A DNA stretch of 26,451 nt from a virus. The stretch is from the IMG/VR virus record IMGVR_UViG_3300000117_000001, positions 37,548-63,998 of that record; one strand, 5' to 3'. The notes under the pieces were generated by a model. The model did no database searches, was not told the DNA's origin, and saw nothing but the letters and a program-made list of their open reading frames with translations. Below are positions 1,298 to 13,849 of this stretch, piece by piece; position 1 is the stretch's first letter, and each line of letters starts with the position of its first letter. The translations under genes and the position numbers were made by a program.

Positions 1298-2356
1298 ATG
1301 GCACTAAGTAATGTTCACAGGTATTTGGCTGTGGGTAAAGAATCAGCATATAATACCGCAGTCGGAGCGACAGGTATTGGTGAAGTTGAATCTGAATCTT
1401 TCGGACAGACATTCGATGTAATGAAAAGAAGCGACATGAATTATTGGAATAGCAGAGAAGCAAGAATGGGTAAAATCTCAACTTCTGGCGGCTGGACTCA
1501 AGCACTTCAACCAGACCTATTTACTATGATGTGCCTTCACGGTCTATTTGGAAAATCTACTCCTTACAATGGAACAGGTGCATCCTCTCCTATTGAAGGT
1601 GTATTACAAGAAACCCCAATTACTGCTGTTACTGCACTACCTTCTTACACTTTCCGCATTGGTCGTGACGATGGAGAAGCAATTTTCCCCGGTCAAGTCA
1701 TTGAGTCATGCAGCGTAAGTGCATCAGTAGGCGAATACGCTATGATTTCTTTCAGTACCCTTGGTTCTACCCAGACACAAGCAGATTCAGGTCTAGGTAC
1801 TGCTGTACCAACATATGTCGGAGATGCTTGTCATTTCGCAAAGACATTCGTAAACTTTGAAGAAGCAGCAACTTCTTCTTCATTCTCTACAATGGTTTCA
1901 TCCATTGACTTTGAAATTAAGAATAATCACGATATAGATAATTCTTATTCTCTTGGTAGCAACGCAGTTACTCGTAGACCACCCGTTACAACTCGTGAAG
2001 TAAGCGGTACTATTACCTTCCATAAGATGCTAGAGTCCGGAGATGCTGAATTAGATGGCGCACCATATTACGAAGAGTTAATGGGTGCAACAACCGATAA
2101 CGCACAAGCAGAAGTACAGCCGGGTTCAAGTACAGCAGCACTTTCTGTTTTCTTTGATGCAGGTACAAACAATTCAATTAGGTTTGATTTCTTTAACCTA
2201 CATTATGAGATGCCAGAGACATCTGTAAGCGGTAGAGATACACAGACAATGAGTGTTAAGTTTCATGGTCTTTATGATTTAACTGCTACAGGAACGGTAA
2301 AAGTTACATACCAAAGTAGTGACAGTGCTTTAGAAGATTTAGATTTGGATGCTTGA
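1298..2356 (+). CDS. Major tail tube protein
   Basis: A 352-aa structural protein that should polymerise into the tail tube. The N-terminus, AVGKESAYNTAVGATGIGEV followed by a segment on the order of SFGQTFDVMKRSDM, matches the typical opening of phage tail tube proteins (a GKESxYNTxV-type motif, then beta strands). The rest is beta-rich with a late strand pair (RRPPVTTREVSGTITFHKML, then a C-terminal beta segment). It precedes the chaperone and tape measure genes, as in lambda-like tails. The ATG at 1298 lacks a Shine-Dalgarno site but lies 24 nt past a TATA-like box, suggesting a leaderless message. The protein is long for a tube subunit, so residues about 230-310 may hold an extra surface domain. 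Family assignment is by pattern and gene order. Confidence 0.78.
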   Translation: MALSNVHRYLAVGKESAYNTAVGATGIGEVESESFGQTFDVMKRSDMNYWNSREARMGKISTSGGWTQALQPDLFTMMCLHGLFGKSTPYNGTGASSPIEGVLQETPITAVTALPSYTFRIGRDDGEAIFPGQVIESCSVSASVGEYAMISFSTLGSTQTQADSGLGTAVPTYVGDACHFAKTFVNFEEAATSSSFSTMVSSIDFEIKNNHDIDNSYSLGSNAVTRRPPVTTREVSGTITFHKMLESGDAELDGAPYYEELMGATTDNAQAEVQPGSSTAALSVFFDAGTNNSIRFDFFNLHYEMPETSVSGRDTQTMSVKFHGLYDLTATGTVKVTYQSSDSALEDLDLDA

Positions 2357-2571: not shown

Positions 2572-2676
2572 ATGCTAGGGAACAGTAGTAAGATTTCCGA
2601 GTGGAACGGGTCAATGACCTGTATAGTAAAAGAAAAGGATAGTGAAAATAGTGCCTGTACTAAAGAAAGAAATTGA
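2572..2676 (+). CDS. Possible 34-aa leader ORF before the tail chaperone
   Basis: An ATG at 2572 preceded by GTGAT (2562-2566) opens a 34-codon frame (MLGNSSKISEWNG onwards) ending in TGA at 2674-2676, which overlaps the first 35 nt of the chaperone gene in another frame. The Shine-Dalgarno-like site and its position in an otherwise empty 82-nt gap are the only support. It may be a translational coupling leader for the weakly started GTG chaperone gene, or chance. Confidence 0.25.
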   Translation: MLGNSSKISEWNGSMTCIVKEKDSENSACTKERN

Positions 2677-3001
2677 ATTGAATGATGGAAAAAAGATTTG
2701 GGTTAGACAAGCATCCGGAATGGATAAACTTGCGATTGAAAAAACCCAAGCGCAAACTTTGCGAACATTTAGACATTTTGGGGCTAATCCCTCAGAATGG
2801 ACTGATGAGCAACATGCAGAGTTTGGAGATGCTTTAACAGACGCAGGTGGCGGCATCGACGGCCAAATTGCTAGTTGGGTTCCTGTATGTATCTTAGACG
2901 AAGAAGTTGATATTAATACTCTTACTTCGCAAGAATTAAGAACAATTCTAGAGTTTGTTAGAGGAGATGATGTGGAGGGTGCAGTCCCTTTGGCCTCTTA
3001 A
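2642..3001 (+). CDS. Tail assembly chaperone, short product (gpG-like)
   Basis: A 119-aa protein in the position of lambda gpG, between the tail tube and tape measure genes. It opens with a beta segment typical of these chaperones (VPVLKKEIELNDGKKIWVRQ), then helices. The start is GTG at 2642; an in-frame TAA at 2627-2629 excludes any earlier start, and GTG at 2651 is an alternative. Near its 3' end is a canonical -1 slippery heptamer CCCTTTG at 2986-2992, in the right phase to pass ribosomes into the following frame. As in long-tailed phages, the short form and a frameshifted long form would coat the tape measure protein during tail assembly. Family assignment rests on position, size and the slippery site. 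Confidence 0.7.
   Translation: MKIVPVLKKEIELNDGKKIWVRQASGMDKLAIEKTQAQTLRTFRHFGANPSEWTDEQHAEFGDALTDAGGGIDGQIASWVPVCILDEEVDINTLTSQELRTILEFVRGDDVEGAVPLAS
2986..2992 (+). promoter_or_regulatory. -1 ribosomal frameshift slippery site
   Basis: C CCT TTG in the zero frame is a perfect X XXY YYZ heptamer. Slipping back one base re-pairs the two tRNAs on CCC and TTT. It lies 7 nt before the zero-frame stop (TAA 2999-3001). The -1 frame is open from 2971 (just after TGA 2968-2970) to 3273. The fused product would be 117 + 93 = 210 residues, continuing GLLTFVAPMLCSAYKG after the shift. A -1 shift at this site is the conserved arrangement in long-tailed phages. Confidence 0.75.
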
Positions 3002-3015
3002 CCTTTGTTGCGCCG

Positions 3016-3273
3016 ATGCTATGCTCGGCTTACAAAGGTGTGTTACCAAGCGACTTATTCGACAAATACGATTGTAGAGGCGGTTGGTACAAACTAGAAT
3101 ATGATTTATCAATTGCTGCTGAAATGACCGATAGAATTAACGAACAAATGGATGAGAACAAAGTTGATGGTAAAAGAGCAGTTGCTAATAGAAATAAGAG
3201 GAGAGTAGAAAAAGCCGCACTGATAGATTCAAAAGAGATGGGAAACATACTAACAGATTGGGCGGATAATTAA
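3016..3273 (+). CDS. Tail assembly chaperone, frameshift extension (gpT-like)
   Basis: An 85-aa frame counted from its first ATG, but probably made mainly as the C-terminal part of the gpG-gpT-like fusion. The ATG at 3016 has no Shine-Dalgarno site or promoter, the frame is open upstream to 2971, and the residues encoded before the ATG (GLLTFVAP from 2992) continue naturally into MLCSAYKGV. The sequence has a conserved-looking aromatic segment (YDCRGGWYKLEYD) and a charged helical tail (residues about 36-75). Its TAA overlaps the tape measure ATG (TAATG at 3271-3275), so translation is coupled. It should bind the tape measure protein while the tail tube polymerises. Confidence 0.65.
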   Translation: MLCSAYKGVLPSDLFDKYDCRGGWYKLEYDLSIAAEMTDRINEQMDENKVDGKRAVANRNKRRVEKAALIDSKEMGNILTDWADN

Positions 3274-6200
3274 TGGCAAAGGCAGGTGCGGCACGAGTCT
3301 TCTTCGACATTGTAGGACAACTACAAGCGACGAAACTTTTAGGTGATACTAAAGCCGCTATGGTTATTCAAGAAGCCATTGTTATTGATACTCTCGGTGG
3401 AATAGCAGATGCTTTCGCAGACTCTACTCAGTATATCATAGATGGCGTACAACATGTTATTGACGCATTTTTTGAGTATGAGCAACAATTCGTAAGAGTC
3501 CGTAAGTTTTACCAAGGAACGGCTTCAGAAGCAAGAGAGTTTGCTGATGCGGCTATGGAAATGGGTCACGCATTCGCATTTACAGGGGCAGAATCTTTAG
3601 CGGCGGCTGCTAGAACAGCACAATTAAAGAATGTATTAGGCGGTCAATTAGCAGTTATTGAGGCTACAAGAGCAGGTCTTTTAATGGCTCAAGTTGGTGA
3701 AATGGAAACCGAGTTGGGTATGAACCGATTTATTGCTCTTGCTCAACAGACTCAATTTATGATGGGAGGTCTTACTAAAGCAAAGTATGACAGTCTTACA
3801 GCAGAGCAACAGGCTAACATTGTAAGAGAGTCTTCTATACATACTCTTAACCAACTTAACACAATTGAAAATACTTCCGTTGCTACAATGGAAGACATTA
3901 CATTCGTTCTTAACCAATTCGCAAGTCAAGCAAATATCGCAGGTGAGTCTATTGGTGAAATGGCTGCTATGTCTGCTTTACTACTTGAAACAGGTGAAGA
4001 AGTAAGCAGAGCAGGTACAGGTCTGCGTATGATTTACCAGAGATTAGGTAATGCTAATAACGAGGCTACAAAAGCAATAGCAGAAATGGTTCCGGGTCTA
4101 GATGCTCAAGGCGTAGCGCAGATGAAATTAACTGATGTTATTAAAGCAATATCCCCCGCATATGATGAAATGGATGCGGCACAGAAAAGAGCATTAGCAG
4201 TTAGTATCGCAGGTTCTCGTCACTACATTAAGTTTTTGAAGATAATGGAAAATCAAGACCGTCTTACACAGATGCAGACTGACTCATTCCATGCTCTTTA
4301 TCCCGCTATTGAAGAGTTTGAAAATAAAACTGAATCTGCTGTTTTCCAAGCAACTCAGATGGAAGCAAAATTAAATGACATGAAAGTCATGCTTGGTGAA
4401 AAATTAGCCCCAGCATATATGTCATCATTTAGAGCGCAAGAGTTTTTCTTAAAGGGCGTAGAGACCTTCTTAGAATTGCCGGGTGCTGAAAAAGCAGTAG
4501 GTGGCCTTATAGCAGCATCTAATGTATACAAAGAAACACTACAACCACTTAGCGAATTAGCATTAAGATTCGCAGGTCTTAGTATTGCTCTAAAAACATA
4601 TACTGCTGCTAATCCAAAAGCAATAGCAGCAAGTAATGAAATGGGTATCAAATATAAAAAATTAGCAGACTCTAGATTATCAGAACAGATACTAGGAGAT
4701 GCAAATATAGAGTCTCTAAAGAAAGAAACTATAGGTCTAAATAGAGCGCAACAATCTATACTAGGCAAAACTTCTGCAACAAAGAGAAGCCTTACTGCTG
4801 ATAGAGTAGCATTAAATGTAAAAAGAAGGGCGAATAAAGCACAAGCAGATACTATTATTAAAAACATAATGGAGGCTGAGTCGGGCGGTAAAGCAGGTAA
4901 AGCATTAAAGCAACTTCATTGGCAAAAGGGTAAATTAACAAAAACAAACGATAGACTTGCTACTCAACAAGGAAGACTTCTTAATTTACAATTTCAAGCA
5001 GATAAAAACCATAAGTTTGAATTAGAGATTAGTAGGTCTATTGTTGCACAGAAAAAAGGTAGAGAGGTTATTGATAAGCGTACTCTTTTAACTATGAGCC
5101 AAAATGTTATGGCGCAAGAAAAAATGAATGCAGGTTTAATGACCCATGCTACTTTAATGTCTAATGAAATTGTATTAACAGCAGACTTAGGTGTCGCAAA
5201 AATAAAAGAGTTAGAGCATAGGTCTATGGAAATACTTCTTTTACAAGAAGATTTTAGAGCAAGAATGGCTGCTCTAAACGCAAAAAGAGCAGATAGATTA
5301 GCAACAGGTCAATCTACATTAGCCATAGATGAAGAAATAATGACAATAAGAGAGGAAATAATAACTCTTGGTCAAAGAAGGGCTGCTATACAAGGTACAA
5401 TAATGGCAAATAAACAATTTGTTGCTAGTAGCAAATCTGCGGCAAGTGGCTTAAAAGGACTTACTGCTAATCTAAAAATAGGGGCGCAAGCGTGGTATGC
5501 GAATGGTAATGCTGTAAAAGCAGCAAAAGGAGGATTAATGGCTATGACAATGCTACTTCCTATGATAGTAGACCAAGAAGACCAAATGGCGGCTATGACT
5601 TACAGTGCAGCAATTATGATGGGTAGTATGTTAATTCCCGCTATTTTTAGTACAAATGCTGCTCTTATAGAAATGGGGGTAGCCGCAGGTTTCGCAAGTG
5701 GCGGGCTTACACTTATAGTAGGCGGTCTGGCTGCATTAGCAGTATACGCAGGTTTCGAGTTTTTCAAAGACAACACAATGCTTGGAGATATTGAAAGTCA
5801 AATTGATTCAGTTAATGAATTAAATACTAGCCTAGATACTACTGCTTCTATACTTGCTGAATTACAAGGGCCATCTGGTGAAAGTGCTATTTTACCGGGT
5901 CTTATTGATGTTTCTTATAATGAGTTAAAACAAAATGCAGACTTAGCCACATTAACTTATGAAGATGTAACAAATAAAATTGCTGGTTTTGAGCAAAATA
6001 GATTAGCAGCAGAAAAAGCAGGTAATAGCGAATTGGCTTCTATGTATTCCGGTAGAATATCTGAATTAGAAGTAGTACAAAGTAAAGTTAAAAGCATAGG
6101 TGATGCTCAAAAGTTTGTAAATGGTACTATTATGGATGGTAACAATGAGTTGTTAGAAGCCTTAACAATTGAAGAAAGAATGTATGGTAGCAAACACGGT

Positions 6201-6758
6201 CAAGGTAACATTCGTGAACCTCATGCTATGGGAGAAAAGGTCTTTACAATAGGGTTTGATACTGACGGTGATGGAGTCGTTGATGATAAAATAGCCGAAG
6301 TTACAGGAAAAGACTATGTAACCTTAATGGATTTAGATAAACAAAATTATGCGGCTCGCCAAGAGGCATATGAAATATATTTAGAAGAAAAAGGTGCGCT
6401 TACAATAGATTATAGTACCGAAGACCATATATTTTTAGTAGATTATTATAAACAGTTATTAGGTGTGCAAGAAACATCTAACGATGCTATGATAGATGCA
6501 GATAGGCAGATGTACGATTCTCTAAATCAACAGACAGAAGAGTTTGCGAATGCTAGAGAAGAGTTATTCTTTGGGGAAAGAGCAAACTTTACAGGACAGA
6601 TATTCAAAAACATTACGCAAGGCGGAGTAGAAAGTATTCTGCATAGAGTAGAGTTTATTCAGACTAATAACTTTAATGGAATGATTCTTGAAGAAATGGT
6701 AGAGCAAGTTAGTACAGGCGTAGTGCAAGAGTTGAGAAGTTTAGGTGTACCGGTATGA
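3273..6758 (+). CDS. Tail tape measure protein
   Basis: At 1161 aa this is the longest mainly helical protein of the module; it sets tail length and may act in DNA delivery. Residues about 60-330 resemble the TP901-type tape measure core (EASGF-like stretches such as ASEAREFADAAMEMG, QFASQANIAGESIGEMAAM and AGTGLRMIYQRLGNAN). Long Ala/Gln/Lys-rich helices follow at about 340-720. A hydrophobic region with several membrane-segment-like stretches lies at about 750-831 (MAMTMLLPMIV, AAIMMGSMLIPAIF, GGLTLIVGGLAALAVYAGF). Residues 996-1005 (DTDGDGVVDD) look like an EF-hand/dockerin-type calcium loop. At about 1.5 angstroms per residue the length predicts a tail of roughly 170 nm. ATG 3273 overlaps the chaperone stop, and the hub gene overlaps the end (ATGA 6755-6758). 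Confidence 0.88.
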   Translation: MAKAGAARVFFDIVGQLQATKLLGDTKAAMVIQEAIVIDTLGGIADAFADSTQYIIDGVQHVIDAFFEYEQQFVRVRKFYQGTASEAREFADAAMEMGHAFAFTGAESLAAAARTAQLKNVLGGQLAVIEATRAGLLMAQVGEMETELGMNRFIALAQQTQFMMGGLTKAKYDSLTAEQQANIVRESSIHTLNQLNTIENTSVATMEDITFVLNQFASQANIAGESIGEMAAMSALLLETGEEVSRAGTGLRMIYQRLGNANNEATKAIAEMVPGLDAQGVAQMKLTDVIKAISPAYDEMDAAQKRALAVSIAGSRHYIKFLKIMENQDRLTQMQTDSFHALYPAIEEFENKTESAVFQATQMEAKLNDMKVMLGEKLAPAYMSSFRAQEFFLKGVETFLELPGAEKAVGGLIAASNVYKETLQPLSELALRFAGLSIALKTYTAANPKAIAASNEMGIKYKKLADSRLSEQILGDANIESLKKETIGLNRAQQSILGKTSATKRSLTADRVALNVKRRANKAQADTIIKNIMEAESGGKAGKALKQLHWQKGKLTKTNDRLATQQGRLLNLQFQADKNHKFELEISRSIVAQKKGREVIDKRTLLTMSQNVMAQEKMNAGLMTHATLMSNEIVLTADLGVAKIKELEHRSMEILLLQEDFRARMAALNAKRADRLATGQSTLAIDEEIMTIREEIITLGQRRAAIQGTIMANKQFVASSKSAASGLKGLTANLKIGAQAWYANGNAVKAAKGGLMAMTMLLPMIVDQEDQMAAMTYSAAIMMGSMLIPAIFSTNAALIEMGVAAGFASGGLTLIVGGLAALAVYAGFEFFKDNTMLGDIESQIDSVNELNTSLDTTASILAELQGPSGESAILPGLIDVSYNELKQNADLATLTYEDVTNKIAGFEQNRLAAEKAGNSELASMYSGRISELEVVQSKVKSIGDAQKFVNGTIMDGNNELLEALTIEERMYGSKHGQGNIREPHAMGEKVFTIGFDTDGDGVVDDKIAEVTGKDYVTLMDLDKQNYAARQEAYEIYLEEKGALTIDYSTEDHIFLVDYYKQLLGVQETSNDAMIDADRQMYDSLNQQTEEFANAREELFFGERANFTGQIFKNITQGGVESILHRVEFIQTNNFNGMILEEMVEQVSTGVVQELRSLGVPV

Positions 6759-9700
6759 CGAAGACAGTTACAACAAAATACAATTTTTGGTTAGCAGGTT
6801 ACTATGACGACTTTGCTTCTGCTAGATGCGTAGCAGATGACCTTAATGACGCTAACGCAAGAACACTAGACCATACTAAAACACATTTTGGTTCTGCTTT
6901 AGGTGGAAACGCAAGACTTAACTCTCGATTTAGATATTCATATCCAGATAGGGTAAGAACAGGTACTTACTTTTTAGATGCACCTAATGGTACAGATTGG
7001 GCGTACCTAGGTTCTAATGAAGCATTTAGCAGCATTACCGCAGTTACAGATTCTTTTACACACAATTCTTCTTTTGCTGATTGGCTAAAGTATGACATGT
7101 ATAGAGATAATGTAGATAGCAATACTGTTTCGCAATCCAAACCTAAGCATCCCTCTTCTATTCTTGCGAATAGACAAAGATTTGCAGGTGCGGCTGGTGA
7201 TTCTTACTTAGCATTTTTTAACGGTCACGAAACTGCTGGAAAATACTATTGCCCTGTAGGAGATATGGATTTTAGTTGGGCTGCTGCCCCTCTTACAATA
7301 GCAAATAAAGAAAGAGCAAGCGGTATTTTTGATGATAATGCTGGTAGTCCTGTTTCTTTTATGCAATACGGTCATTCATCTACACTATATCCTTCTCATG
7401 TACCTGCTTCTGCAAATACTTATGCTTTAGTATCTTTTGCTAGCGTATATGTAAACGAAGAAGTAGACGCAACAGTAGCAAAAGAATACCCTACTTCATA
7501 CTCACATGAAATAGTAAGCCCTGCTAAAAATAACTTTTTTATTCATAATCTATACATTCCAGCAGAAGCAGGTTCTAGTGGTACAGAAAGAATAATGACA
7601 TACGATGGCCCACTTAGAATAAAAGGTCTTGGAGAAAGTTTTCATTTGCGAATTGCAGTAGATGTTCCCCAACAAACGGGTGTTGGAAACTACATAGACT
7701 TTGCTTATTCTCTAAAGATAGGCTACAAATCTAGTGCTACTTACAATAAATCTACAAATGCTTTTAGCGATACTGCTAGTATAGCAACAATACCTATAAC
7801 TTTAGCAGATATGGGGTTGTTTACAGGAGATATAAGAAAATACAAAGAAGGAGTGCCAGATGCAATACCTTTAGATATGATGTGGGCTGATATAGAAGTT
7901 GTTTTTGACTTTACTGCTAATACTTGGAAAGCATACGCAAATGGAAATACTAGTCATTTCGCAACCGGCTCAATAGATACATCTGTAGAGGAATTAACTG
8001 CTGTTGGTTGGTCTTTAGATACAACTTGGGCGCGTGGCACTAGTACCTATGGAACACTAGTTACTATGATTGATAGAGCCGCTATTGCTTTGCCACTTAC
8101 AAATAAGTTTGATGGCACAATTCCCGCCCCTGTAGAAAAGTTTTCTTTAAGTAGAGGTGCTAATAGAATAAGTACCTGTAGTGTTACAATAGCAGATGAT
8201 GATAATTCTTATAATCTATTAGCACTAACTACAGGAGTGGCTACAAGCGAATGGAAATTAGTATGTTTTTTAGATAATGAGGATAGACCTTTTTGGCAAG
8301 GAGTAGTAAATAGTATTACTCATAAACAAAATAATAAAAATCAGACTCTAAGTACAACCATAAAAGCAGAAGACTCTCTAAGTATTTTAGATAGAACACT
8401 TCCTATCTGGGAACACGGTCAAAACTCCTACATTACTTTATCTAACCATACTTCTATGGCTAGTACAGTAGATAAGAGAATAGAAGAAACTACTGCTATA
8501 TCTAACACTTTATTGATGGGTAGTGCTGATTTAAGTTTTAAAGGTAGTGAATTAGGTTTTAGCAAATATGATACAGATAAATACTCTGGCGGCTTTAGTC
8601 CTATAACAGATAGTAGAACACAACTTCATTCTGGCACTCCTATCCAGATGTATATTAACGAAGACGAAGATGGGCCTAACGATGCTGAAAATGAATGGGA
8701 AGGAGATGATGTTTTAGAGATAGTATCACATCATCCCTTTACAGACCCAGACAGAGAGTTTTGGGTAAAATACGATGAAAGAATCGGAGGTAGTGCTACT
8801 CCTTCTTCAGGACATATTGCTACTTACGGTAATTTTAGTGATGGTGACACCTTTGTTGTAAAAGGTACTGCTTATGATGGTACATATACAATAAATCAAA
8901 TGTATATTAAAAAAGATATAACTACCAAAGAAGACACTTACTTTGTAAGAATAAGAGCAACAGATACATCAGGAAATGCGGGAACAGATAGATTGTTTAC
9001 TGCAACAGATGTAGTATTATTAAATGGAGATTATAACGGAAAAAAACTTGTTAGAATCATAACATCTTCGGCACATAATCTTTCAGAAGGAGATGAGTTT
9101 ATGTTCCCTCAAGGCTTAAATGTTTCTGGTTATTCTCTGGAATTATTTACTGCTAGGCCATTACAAGTTTTCCATGTATTTTCTGCTACTGCTTTCTATG
9201 TTTTAGTGGAAAGATGGCCTTTTGCAGTTGCAGATAGCAAAGGTATACTTTCTAATTCGGGCATGACTTATGACCTAAGCAAAATAAATGGTAAAGATTC
9301 TAAGTCTTATCCTAAGACACATCCCGTACTTTACAAATCAAATACAATTACTACTCAAATACCACAAGATGTTACTAAATACAGAAATATACATGCTAGA
9401 TGGATGAGAGATTTACCTCAATCTACTTGGTTCAAAGCACAGTTTGGTGTAATTGCAGCAGAACCTTATTGGAGACATGGTATAGGTTCATTCCTTCACA
9501 CACCATTTACTGCTTCTCAAGCAGCACTAATGGTTTCGACAATTGGTACTTCACAATGGAATGCTGATGGTACTACTAAAGTACCTACTATGGAGGGTGA
9601 TTTAACAACATCCTCTACAACACTTACTCTAAGAGATGCTGCTTTATGGTGGTACATAACACATAATAGACTAAAGGAGTTTATTATAGACTTAGTGGAT

Positions 9701-12700
9701 AAAGATACAGGAGACCATCAGTATATCATAGGTAATAATGTCACCACTCCAACAAATTATGATGCCGTAACATGGAATCCCGGTAGATTTGTTAAGACTA
9801 GTCATGGGTTTGTAGAAGGACAAATAATCGTTCATACAGGATTTACTCAAGAACACTTAAATGGGCCAATGATGATAAAAGATGTTGTTTCAACATTTGA
9901 GTATACTACTTACAGAATAGAGCAATTTAACGCAAATGACTCCTCATTTGCGTACCTAAAAGCAAAATACAGAGGAGGTAGTAATTGGTCTGATGGTAAT
10001 AGTAGATGGTATGAAGACCCAGATAACATTACTGCTACTTTAGTACAACCTTCTTCTGGTGCTGAATATGCGCCCGATGCAGACTCCGGAGCGGCATATC
10101 ACGGTACTGTAAATCTTACAGGTCTTAAAGGGATTAAAAGAGATTGGAATAGAGCAAACACTATCTATACTCTTAGAAAAGTAGATGAAAGTAATGGTTA
10201 CAAACATCTATGGGCTTTATGGGCTGATATGAGAAATGACGGTACTGCTGATGCAGACGGAGGTTATCGCAAGTCTGACTTTAATTTGCTTTTACCTACA
10301 TCTCAGAAGTATTCAGTTAATCTTACTTTTGCTAATCAATTTGACGAATATGGTTTACCAGATACTTTTTGCGATTTGAAAGTAGGAGAAGATTTAGATA
10401 TATGGTCTCTTGATGCTACAGAAGAACCATTTACGGGTAATGCTTGGGAGACTCTTGAGGGTGGTTCAAACGAAGAACCATTCGACCAATATCACAATTG
10501 GAAAGATAAAGGAGGCGCAATATGTCTAGTAGATGTATCTCGTTTCTGGAATCTAAATACTGCCGCAACAGGCGGAAGACCCGGCTACAAAAGCGGCGGT
10601 TTAGCAGACTTTGGAGACTACGAAACCAATTCTACAGGTTTCCCCTATCTTATTGATAATTATTGGAAACATGCAGTAGCAAACTACAAAAATATAACAG
10701 AAGATACTCACTTTGTAAAGTATCATAAAAACGCTGATTATTTCATAAATGACGGTACTCATTTAATGAGAGATATTGCAGTAGGAGATACCGTCATTTA
10801 TTTAGATGATGCAAGTCAATTCGCAAGTAGTGGTTATGGAGTTATACAATGCACAGGAGGAGGAGAAGACCGTGACTCTGAAAAGACTAATTATTATTTC
10901 TATTGGTCTGGTAAAACTAGTGTTCTAATAAATAATCAACCATATGATAAATTAACAGGAGTATACATTACTGCCTATGAAGTAGTAACCGGCCCTAAAA
11001 ATGCAATAGACCAATTAAAAGCAGACTCCTCGTTATATTCTGGCGGTAGTGAAGTTGCTATTGCTAGTAATGAGTTTTTAACAACAAATGTAGAAGGTAA
11101 TTTTGATACTGTAAGAGTATACAATAGTCCCGCAGCACTGTTTAGTTTTAGATTATTAATGAATATATCTGGTAAAATTAAATCTCTTAACTCTGGTACA
11201 TACTTTGCACACGATAAACTTAGGTATATGCAGACATTACTTCTAACAGATAGTTGGGCTACTAATGCAACACTTCCTTGTATTTGGGATATACAAAATG
11301 TTCCTAAGACTAGCAGTTTAGGAGGAGAAGATTACGGTTCTGTTCACGATGCTAGAGGACAAACAATCTTAACTTTGCTAAATGATATGAAAAGCAAAGA
11401 AGGGAATGGTAGTAATGGAGGACTAAAGACCTTTTCTTGGCTAATAAGTAGAGACAATAGGTTAGACTTTAGAGAAAGTTATGCTAGCGGTCATACATTT
11501 AATAGAAATAATCTAAAAGTTTCTGATTTAAGTACAGTAGCAGGTAGTCAGATAACAAATGTAAGAGTATACTATAATGGAAACTCTGCATTTGCAGACC
11601 ACCCACAGCCTTCTGGTTCAGATGTCAAATGGAGAGTATTAAATTATCCAAACATTTTCAATGGAGAAGAAGCCCTGTCCTTAGCAAAACAAGAGTACCT
11701 TAGAGAAAAAGACTCTAGAGTAAGTATAAGTGCAGAAATAATTAGGCCATCAGGAGATACAAATGTAATGACAGATGGGGGTAGGTACGGATATGTTGCA
11801 GATGTATGTAGAAATCTAACTAGAAAAGACACAGAATCTTTGGCTTGGTGGACTAATACTTTAGGCGGCTCTCCGTTCTTTGGTATTCAAAATGCTTTAG
11901 ATTGTGGCTCACTTAATTCGGAGGCTAACATAACTAACTCGTCTTTGTTATATGCAAGCACTTATGATAATAATAGCGCATCACATGTTCTTCAAAATTA
12001 CGCACATGCAGCAGACCATAGATGGAGACTAGGTATAGTATCTACAAATAGTGCTGGCGTAGCACCTACTAGTCCACCAGCAAGCGGTAAGATATACAGA
12101 GTATCTACAGGGCCGGATGTATACAAGTGGGCTTACGATGGAAGCACTTATGGCCCCAATGTTACATTTAGCAATACTAATACTTGGTATGAATTAGAGT
12201 CTACAGTTAGTGGAGTTACATACAAACTATCAGTATACAATATAGACACCTCTCATGCTTCTGCTATACAAGAAGTAACTATGTATTATGATAGAGCAAC
12301 TAGAAGGCATGGTAACGCTTACTATTGGTATGGAACAAACTCTCTATCCTCTGCTATACAAGTAGTACATGTAGACAAAGACACCAAAAAAGTTAGTGGT
12401 ACTTCAAATAATGAATTAAGACTTGCGATTGCGTATCACGCTGGTAGTACGGCTCAGACTGCTACCTTCAAACTATTTGCTTTAGATTATGGTTTTGATG
12501 AAGCGATAGGGTCTGGCCCTGTAGCACCATTATTTACTGCTGCTACTTTACATGGGTCTTCTTCTGTAGTAATTGATGGTAACGGTATGTTTGAATTAAC
12601 ACTACCTTCATCTTATGATAGTAGTACACCAAAGGTAATTTTTTCAGCAGATATAGATTATTTGCGAGATGTTATGGATAGAAGATTGTATCAGACTACT

Positions 12701-13849
12701 CCTAAAAACGCACATAATATACCATTAGATAGTACATACTCATCTTTTGATACAGATAGTCCATTCCCATTAGGAGTTAGGCAGTATGATGACTTAGGGC
12801 CAATGGCAGATAGAAGGGCGGCTTGGTATGCACCTAGGTTACATATTGTAGATGACCTTAATTTCACGCCAGCAACAACCCTGTCCTATACAGATACTCA
12901 TGTAGATTTAAGTAACGAAACTATGGTTATAAGAGATGTCAATTGGCAACAAGACTGTACTAAGCACGAAAAGGTTACTATGAAACTAGAGAAGGTTGAA
13001 AGTCATTACGCTTACTCTATGGCTCAAGTATTTGCGAAAGAGACATCTCCTGTAGGGGGAGGGGGAGGATGGTACGATGGTAACTCTGACGACTACAACC
13101 AACCTCCCTCTACAGGCGGTTTTGGTGGCGAAGTCCCTAGACCAGCACCTATGCTAACCACTTCTAGCAACATCAATGATGATGGTCAGAGTCAATTCAC
13201 AGGTCTGACTTCTAATCAGATGTCTAAGACCTTGATAAGGGGTCTTAAAGGCAGAGCAGACTTCGGGGGCGACAAGAACGCCTCCGGTGCAACATGGGGT
13301 GTCCTAGGTAGCAAAAACACAGGGATAACATCCTCATTCGATAGAGCGATTGATGGTCTCGACACAACATCCGGTTCATCCGGTTCTGCGATTGCTACTT
13401 CTGATGGATTTACATTAGCAGGTATAGCAGACCCAGAGGTGGGCCAGCAAGGAGAAGTGCATAGTCATACCCTCAATGTGCGAGTACCTAACGATACTAG
13501 TAGCGGATATGTGTCTGTTCTTGCTAGTATATCCCTACCGTCTATCAGTAGTGGAGGAAACGCAGAAATAACAACTACTGTAACTTGTAAAGAAACCTCT
13601 GCTGCTATTAGCAGCACCAAGATTATTACGCAAGGAGTTAGTAATGCTAATACTATCTTACTACCGACTCAATTCTTGAACGGGGCCGGTACTGCGAATA
13701 ACACTCTGATAGTAACCTTTGAAAGAAAGCCAGCACAAGGTAACGATGCGGCAGGTTATCAGTCTCTTGTGATACACAATGTATCAGTTAATGTAAGAAG
13801 GTACAACAAGCCAGCAGTAGCCCAAAGCAACTCATTCAAAGCCTACTAG
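6755..13849 (+). CDS. Giant tail hub / adhesin protein with ConA-like segments
   Basis: A 2364-aa tail-tip protein translationally coupled to the tape measure gene. Residues about 1-440 are beta-rich with a LamG-like segment (FHLRIAVDVPQQTG, then WADIEVVFDFTANTWKAYAN). Residues about 455-550 match the first domain of phage tail hubs (FSLSRGANRISTCSVTIADD, then FWQGVVNSI and TTIKAEDSLSILDR). The later hub half appears around 1500-1690 (ITNVRVYYNGNSAF, LAKQEYLREKDSRVSISAEI) and closes near 2050-2090. A second ConA-like insert is at about 1790-1925. A Gly linker (residues about 2101-2105) leads to a separate beta-rich C-terminal domain of about 260 aa, probably exposed and receptor-binding. There is no visible protease or muramidase motif. 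Hub identity is by pattern and order; domain limits are approximate. Confidence 0.72.
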   Translation: MTKTVTTKYNFWLAGYYDDFASARCVADDLNDANARTLDHTKTHFGSALGGNARLNSRFRYSYPDRVRTGTYFLDAPNGTDWAYLGSNEAFSSITAVTDSFTHNSSFADWLKYDMYRDNVDSNTVSQSKPKHPSSILANRQRFAGAAGDSYLAFFNGHETAGKYYCPVGDMDFSWAAAPLTIANKERASGIFDDNAGSPVSFMQYGHSSTLYPSHVPASANTYALVSFASVYVNEEVDATVAKEYPTSYSHEIVSPAKNNFFIHNLYIPAEAGSSGTERIMTYDGPLRIKGLGESFHLRIAVDVPQQTGVGNYIDFAYSLKIGYKSSATYNKSTNAFSDTASIATIPITLADMGLFTGDIRKYKEGVPDAIPLDMMWADIEVVFDFTANTWKAYANGNTSHFATGSIDTSVEELTAVGWSLDTTWARGTSTYGTLVTMIDRAAIALPLTNKFDGTIPAPVEKFSLSRGANRISTCSVTIADDDNSYNLLALTTGVATSEWKLVCFLDNEDRPFWQGVVNSITHKQNNKNQTLSTTIKAEDSLSILDRTLPIWEHGQNSYITLSNHTSMASTVDKRIEETTAISNTLLMGSADLSFKGSELGFSKYDTDKYSGGFSPITDSRTQLHSGTPIQMYINEDEDGPNDAENEWEGDDVLEIVSHHPFTDPDREFWVKYDERIGGSATPSSGHIATYGNFSDGDTFVVKGTAYDGTYTINQMYIKKDITTKEDTYFVRIRATDTSGNAGTDRLFTATDVVLLNGDYNGKKLVRIITSSAHNLSEGDEFMFPQGLNVSGYSLELFTARPLQVFHVFSATAFYVLVERWPFAVADSKGILSNSGMTYDLSKINGKDSKSYPKTHPVLYKSNTITTQIPQDVTKYRNIHARWMRDLPQSTWFKAQFGVIAAEPYWRHGIGSFLHTPFTASQAALMVSTIGTSQWNADGTTKVPTMEGDLTTSSTTLTLRDAALWWYITHNRLKEFIIDLVDKDTGDHQYIIGNNVTTPTNYDAVTWNPGRFVKTSHGFVEGQIIVHTGFTQEHLNGPMMIKDVVSTFEYTTYRIEQFNANDSSFAYLKAKYRGGSNWSDGNSRWYEDPDNITATLVQPSSGAEYAPDADSGAAYHGTVNLTGLKGIKRDWNRANTIYTLRKVDESNGYKHLWALWADMRNDGTADADGGYRKSDFNLLLPTSQKYSVNLTFANQFDEYGLPDTFCDLKVGEDLDIWSLDATEEPFTGNAWETLEGGSNEEPFDQYHNWKDKGGAICLVDVSRFWNLNTAATGGRPGYKSGGLADFGDYETNSTGFPYLIDNYWKHAVANYKNITEDTHFVKYHKNADYFINDGTHLMRDIAVGDTVIYLDDASQFASSGYGVIQCTGGGEDRDSEKTNYYFYWSGKTSVLINNQPYDKLTGVYITAYEVVTGPKNAIDQLKADSSLYSGGSEVAIASNEFLTTNVEGNFDTVRVYNSPAALFSFRLLMNISGKIKSLNSGTYFAHDKLRYMQTLLLTDSWATNATLPCIWDIQNVPKTSSLGGEDYGSVHDARGQTILTLLNDMKSKEGNGSNGGLKTFSWLISRDNRLDFRESYASGHTFNRNNLKVSDLSTVAGSQITNVRVYYNGNSAFADHPQPSGSDVKWRVLNYPNIFNGEEALSLAKQEYLREKDSRVSISAEIIRPSGDTNVMTDGGRYGYVADVCRNLTRKDTESLAWWTNTLGGSPFFGIQNALDCGSLNSEANITNSSLLYASTYDNNSASHVLQNYAHAADHRWRLGIVSTNSAGVAPTSPPASGKIYRVSTGPDVYKWAYDGSTYGPNVTFSNTNTWYELESTVSGVTYKLSVYNIDTSHASAIQEVTMYYDRATRRHGNAYYWYGTNSLSSAIQVVHVDKDTKKVSGTSNNELRLAIAYHAGSTAQTATFKLFALDYGFDEAIGSGPVAPLFTAATLHGSSSVVIDGNGMFELTLPSSYDSSTPKVIFSADIDYLRDVMDRRLYQTTPKNAHNIPLDSTYSSFDTDSPFPLGVRQYDDLGPMADRRAAWYAPRLHIVDDLNFTPATTLSYTDTHVDLSNETMVIRDVNWQQDCTKHEKVTMKLEKVESHYAYSMAQVFAKETSPVGGGGGWYDGNSDDYNQPPSTGGFGGEVPRPAPMLTTSSNINDDGQSQFTGLTSNQMSKTLIRGLKGRADFGGDKNASGATWGVLGSKNTGITSSFDRAIDGLDTTSGSSGSAIATSDGFTLAGIADPEVGQQGEVHSHTLNVRVPNDTSSGYVSVLASISLPSISSGGNAEITTTVTCKETSAAISSTKIITQGVSNANTILLPTQFLNGAGTANNTLIVTFERKPAQGNDAAGYQSLVIHNVSVNVRRYNKPAVAQSNSFKAY

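Follow-up and report, generated by a model that had tools for sequence, protein, structure and literature searches.

A conserved slippery heptamer points to ribosomal −1 frameshifting of tail assembly chaperone genes in a probably archaeal group of marine viruses

The window analyzed in this study comprises 26,451 nucleotides and forms the final 26.5 kb of the 64-kb IMG/VR virus record IMGVR_UViG_3300000117_000001. Between its tail tube gene (PF18906) and its tape measure gene (PF10145/PHROG), the window carries a pair of reading frames, G and T, which a preliminary description of the DNA had recognized as tail assembly chaperone genes in a lambda-type arrangement. The identity of the upstream and downstream neighbors bears out this position. 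The features of the region are as follows:

1298–2356, plus strand: major tail (tube) protein gene (PF18906 Phage_tube_2, E 5.6e-12)
2651–3001, plus strand: gene G, putative tail assembly chaperone, zero-frame product of 116 aa (start alignment of 119 relatives; AlphaFold2; Foldseek; BFVD)
2975–2979, plus strand: Shine–Dalgarno-like GAGGG, candidate stimulator, 6 nt 5′ of the heptamer
2986–2992, plus strand: slippery heptamer C_CCT_TTG
2992–3273, plus strand: T domain, a conserved domain in the −1 frame, predicted to be read only by shifted ribosomes and to contribute 93 aa to GT
3001–3039, plus strand: hairpin predicted in the RNA (dG −19.1 kcal/mol, z −2.4) at 8 nt 3′ of the heptamer, without conservation among the relatives
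3016–3018, plus strand: in-frame ATG of the second frame, predicted internal Met of the conserved T domain
3273–6758, plus strand: tape measure protein gene, encoding 1161 aa (PF10145 and PHROG tape measure families)

Of 36 related loci, all 36 contain the tail tube gene and 32 contain the tape measure gene. Two further reading frames lie close by. A 61-aa ORF (2374–2559) separates the tail tube gene from G; it is conserved directly upstream of G in 14 of 36 related loci, with 32–82% identity among the matches listed. A 2364-aa protein (6755–13849) encoded 3′ of the tape measure gene is present in 23 of 36 related loci; it matched no PHROGs family and is probably a large tail-tip or fibre protein.

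Downstream of the tail genes, the minus strand encodes a family B DNA polymerase (PolB), an RFC small subunit and an ERCC4 nuclease, which confirms the archaeal replication genes mentioned in the preliminary description. PolB is closest to haloarchaeal viruses; its top matches among phage records are HCTV-5 and HRTV-27, with HVTV-1 also ranking high, all at 22–23% identity. Elsewhere in the record we found a portal domain, which scores below the curated cut-off, and the terminase domain PF17289, while a search of the same record for terminase PF04466 returned none. Judging by its genes, the layout is that of archaeal tailed viruses related to Druskaviridae and to the marine magroviruses (PMC12999244). 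The combination of PolB, clamp loader and nuclease with oppositely transcribed morphogenesis and replication modules would fit Magrovirales, viruses of Poseidoniales (PMC12999244). The genome collection searched for host assignment contained no relatives of G or RFC, and G had no match among phage records. The window probably represents an uncultivated marine virus group with an archaeal host.

At the end of G, the zero-frame codons read GAG GGT GCA GTC CCT TTG GCC TCT TAA, placing CCCTTTG exactly in the X_XXY_YYZ phase, with 6 nt between the heptamer and the G stop codon (TAA, 2999–3001). The −1 frame is open from 2971, following a TGA at 2968–2970, to a TAA at 3271–3273. Heptamer, phase and open −1 frame are thus as first described. 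In the window's genes, 0.28% of codon positions carry a zero-frame X_XXY_YYZ heptamer, and by this frequency the chance of finding one in the overlap is about 2%. Such an accident would be called for if a single gene had been broken by an indel in assembly, with a heptamer nearby by coincidence.

To relate the site to natural variation, we used 119 distinct G+T pairs from IMG/VR searches, together with a tree of 94 distinct pairs. In all 119 relatives, which come from many metagenomes, the second frame is at −1 and in none are the two fused in frame; this refutes an assembly error, which we regard as having practically no probability. CCCTTT followed by G, A or T is found in 110 of the 119 (G in 81, A in 15, T in 14), and, as the second frame is always at −1, this conservation also removes the remaining doubt about chance. 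The preliminary description had proposed comparing heptamer and phase in related viral contigs, and had named the retention of both frames with loss of the heptamer as evidence against a frameshift. Loss is not general among the relatives, and the nine that deviate from the motif retain a T_TTT core.

Spacing within the relatives further delimits the site. In 119 of 119 relatives, the heptamer lies at a distance of exactly 15 codons from an [FY]KG motif conserved in the second domain, whereas the stop codon of G follows the heptamer at a distance that varies between 0 and 27 nt. Where the overlap is tightest, the −1 frame opens just 16–19 nt 5′ of the G stop, so that the shift must take place at or beside the heptamer.

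We then compared neighboring sequences on the tree of 94 distinct pairs for synonymous change. The Pro codon of the heptamer shows no synonymous changes where 35.8 are expected (z −8.6), and the Leu codon shows 5 against 34.9 expected (z −7.4). Taken as a window, the two slippery codons have a z of −11.3, the strongest suppression in the gene, compared with −3.7 for the best two-codon window elsewhere. The base 5′ of CCT is C in 84 of 94 relatives, whichever amino acid is encoded (GTC, ATC, CTC, ACC, TGC and CCC for Val, Ile, Leu, Thr, Cys and Pro, respectively), and no other Val column has more than 15% GTC. Both the suppressed synonymous change and the C before CCT across different amino acids show that selection acts on the letters of the DNA and not on the protein alone.

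The start of G probably differs from the one first proposed. In 119 of 119 distinct relatives, the G start (ATG in 111, GTG in 8) aligns with the codon before “PVLKKEIEL”, which is GTG 2651 in the window, and the ATG of the relatives often has a good Shine–Dalgarno (SD) sequence, for example AAGGAGTGATAGAAATG in relative L023. Within 2628–2653 of the window, GTG 2642, from which G would have 119 aa, is therefore probably wrong as a start. The fusion length of 210 aa given in the preliminary description holds from GTG 2642; the alignment makes product lengths of 116 aa (G) and 207 aa (GT) likelier. Neither G, T nor the open −1 frame matched any Pfam or PHROGs family. The AlphaFold2 model of G has a mean pLDDT of 92.9, and its top PDB matches in Foldseek are chains of the HK97 tail assembly chaperone 2ob9, at weak scores (E 0.42, TM 0.33–0.38). 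Searches against BFVD returned many tail assembly chaperones (E 0.01–0.4, probability up to 0.96).

The second frame might alternatively be a gene of its own, translated by reinitiation after the G stop or by independent initiation at ATG 3016. In the window, 14 nt separate this codon from the G stop, and some ATG precedes the KG motif in 62 of 94 relatives. The sole match in a fold search with T was its own deposited relative, BFVD entry A0A516MCV4, which is 94% identical and stands as a separate 85-aa protein; automatic annotation probably read the frame in this way, and the frameshift was thus probably missed. Several observations speak against a separate gene. The column of ATG 3016 is Met in just 8 of 94 relatives, and in 21 of 94 the KG motif is preceded by neither an ATG nor a GTG or TTG. 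The window contains no SD site 5′ of ATG 3016, as had been noted at the outset, and the relatives, too, offer the second frame no clear start with a ribosome-binding site: an SD-like 4-mer accompanies 3 of 106 ATGs between heptamer and KG motif, compared with 105 of 119 start codons of G. From the G stop to the codon that aligns with ATG 3016, the −1 frame has a pN/pS of 0.29 and its third positions are the most variable; to judge by this substitution pattern, the frame upstream of ATG 3016 is under purifying selection and evolves as coding sequence. With no conserved start, almost no SD sequences and coding evolution before ATG 3016, reinitiation is unlikely, and a separate T would leave both the conserved heptamer and the fixed 15-codon spacing unexplained. 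We give this alternative only a slim chance.

The reading that we favor, with a probability of roughly 93%, is that G and GT are tail assembly chaperones made by ribosomal −1 frameshifting at C_CCU_UUG. In this model, most ribosomes would end G (116 aa) at the TAA, and a minority would slip back by one base on C_CCU_UUG, with the Pro-tRNA exchanging its pairing with CCU for one with CCC and the Leu-tRNA its pairing with UUG for one with UUU. The shifted ribosomes would read the −1 frame to 3273, giving a GT fusion about 207 aa long. If the roles resemble those of lambda gpG and gpGT, the tape measure protein would be coated by G, the less abundant GT would use its T part to recruit the tail tube subunit, and the ratio of G to GT set by the slip would be important for tail assembly. 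We infer that the slip occurs on the ribosome, and likewise its efficiency and the lambda-like roles. The canonical −1 site joining the two chaperone genes, as proposed in the preliminary description, is thereby supported by the comparative evidence from 119 relatives.

A slip of RNA polymerase at the same site would likewise join both frames. However, the site has no long homopolymer, CCCTTT offering only three consecutive C and three or four consecutive T, and the feature that is conserved is the codon phase X_XXY_YYZ, which is a requirement of the ribosome. We therefore consider polymerase slippage even less probable than a separate T gene.

The predicted end of the GT frame is closely linked to the next gene. 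The T stop and the ATG of the tape measure gene overlap as TAATGG (window 3271–3275), and in several relatives T stop and tape measure start also lie within a few bases of each other. Translation of the tape measure protein might be coupled to the rarer GT, since only frameshifted ribosomes would reach the T stop.

We searched both sides of the slippery site for candidate stimulators. Across 70 representatives there is no conserved stem-loop 3′ of the heptamer, and the mean structure z-score there is no lower than elsewhere. The hairpin at 3001–3039 is absent as a consensus structure of the relatives and is thus at most lineage-specific. The sole consensus returned by RNAalifold, which pairs the slippery site with the invariant Lys-Gly codons, was attributed to protein constraint. 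A hairpin of GARGG with CCUUU around the site was also rejected from codon counts, as Asp instead of Glu would break a pair in 15 of 94 relatives. On the 5′ side, 107 of 119 relatives carry a 4-mer of AGGAGGTGAT no more than 20 nt from the heptamer, compared with 34% of background windows, and the Glu codon at the GAGGG site is GAG in 65% of relatives, compared with 12–40% at all but one other Glu column. We take these figures as suggestive of an SD-like stimulator, since conserved Arg-Gly-Asp codons may account for part of the 4-mer enrichment.

The nine relatives that lack the first C of the heptamer have the sequences ACCTTTT (4), GCCTTTT (3), TCCTTTT (1) and GCATTTT (1). In the last of these, relative L113, the site near 5342 reads GTG CAT TTT instead of CCT TTT; its P-site half is gone, and only T_TTT is left. 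Loss of the first base is found in 9 of 23 relatives with UUU in the A site, compared with 0 of 96 with UUG or UUA. Within this UUU clade, which has a support of only 0.58, the first base may be C, A, G or T, having drifted with about seven changes on the tree. A Fisher test of the pattern gives p 8e-8, a value that is inflated by relatedness and overstates the pattern, as the relatives are not independent. In Escherichia coli, U_UU.Y tetramers slip and U_UU.R tetramers barely do (PMC4066793). The exceptions are consistent with this rule and thus argue for ribosomal slippage rather than against it. The lineage offers a natural test of the relative importance of the two halves of the heptamer. 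Tentatively, and with slightly less than even confidence, we suggest that the P-site half is dispensable only when the A site holds UUU, that the archaeal ribosome would obey the A-site re-pairing rule of E. coli, and that the site may run without a conserved downstream structure, with the upstream SD-like GAGG as a possible stimulator.

The 119 distinct sequences constitute a deep natural data set for an uncultivated, probably archaeal, marine virus group. For this lineage, the model predicts a specific shift site, a specific product and the junction peptide ...EGAVPL|GLLTF..., and it corrects the annotation of the close T relative that is now deposited as a separate protein.

G/GT frameshifting is standard among long-tailed phages (PMC5009743), and one of the closest known systems is the pair of lambda tail assembly chaperones gpG and gpGT (Xu, Hendrix and Duda 2004, reviewed in PMC5009743). 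The lambda heptamer is G_GGA_AAG, whereas here it is C_CCU_UUG; the present virus is of archaeal type, and its G and T have no detectable Pfam or PHROGs sequence match. Among archaeal tailed viruses, a −1 shift in the same gene pair has been proposed for the haloarchaeal siphoviruses HVTV-1, HCTV-1, HCTV-2 and HCTV-5 (Druskaviridae and relatives) and for Hardycor1 (PMC8211752, PMC5009743, PMC7911831). In the HVTV-1 record, the chaperone is annotated as a joined gene between gene 128 and the tape measure, and HCTV-5 has a replication gene set similar to that of this virus. A profile comparison of HVTV-1 G with the G described here revealed no similarity (hhalign probability 0.6%). The heptamers reported from haloarchaeal viruses are G_GGA_AAC/G/T (G_GGA_AAT in Hardycor1) and A_AAA_AAC, in contrast to C_CCU_UUN here. 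The haloarchaeal myoviruses HSTV-2 and the HF1 group have a predicted frameshift fusion at the same gene position, but their shift is +1, and the HF1 group lacks a conventional heptamer (PMC5009743, PMC7230728). A heptamer of the type found here, C_CCU_UUA, has been proposed for a −1 shift in Giardiavirus, a dsRNA virus of a protist, where it lies in an unrelated gene and where the proposal is disputed within the same paper (PMC8230311).

The preliminary description had called −1 shifting in archaea little documented. This holds for experiments: a 2021 review lists one demonstrated archaeal −1 programmed frameshift, in the Saccharolobus fucosidase, and a handful predicted in haloarchaeal viruses (PMC8211752). 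Reports of frameshifting in these genes of haloarchaeal tailed viruses, however, go back to 2013 (PMC8211752, PMC5009743, PMC7911831), so that the arrangement itself is not new. A literature search of incomplete coverage found no report of a G/GT frameshift in magroviruses or viruses of Poseidoniales. Compared with the known systems, the new elements here are the lineage, which is marine, the heptamer C_CCU_UUN and the depth of the comparison.
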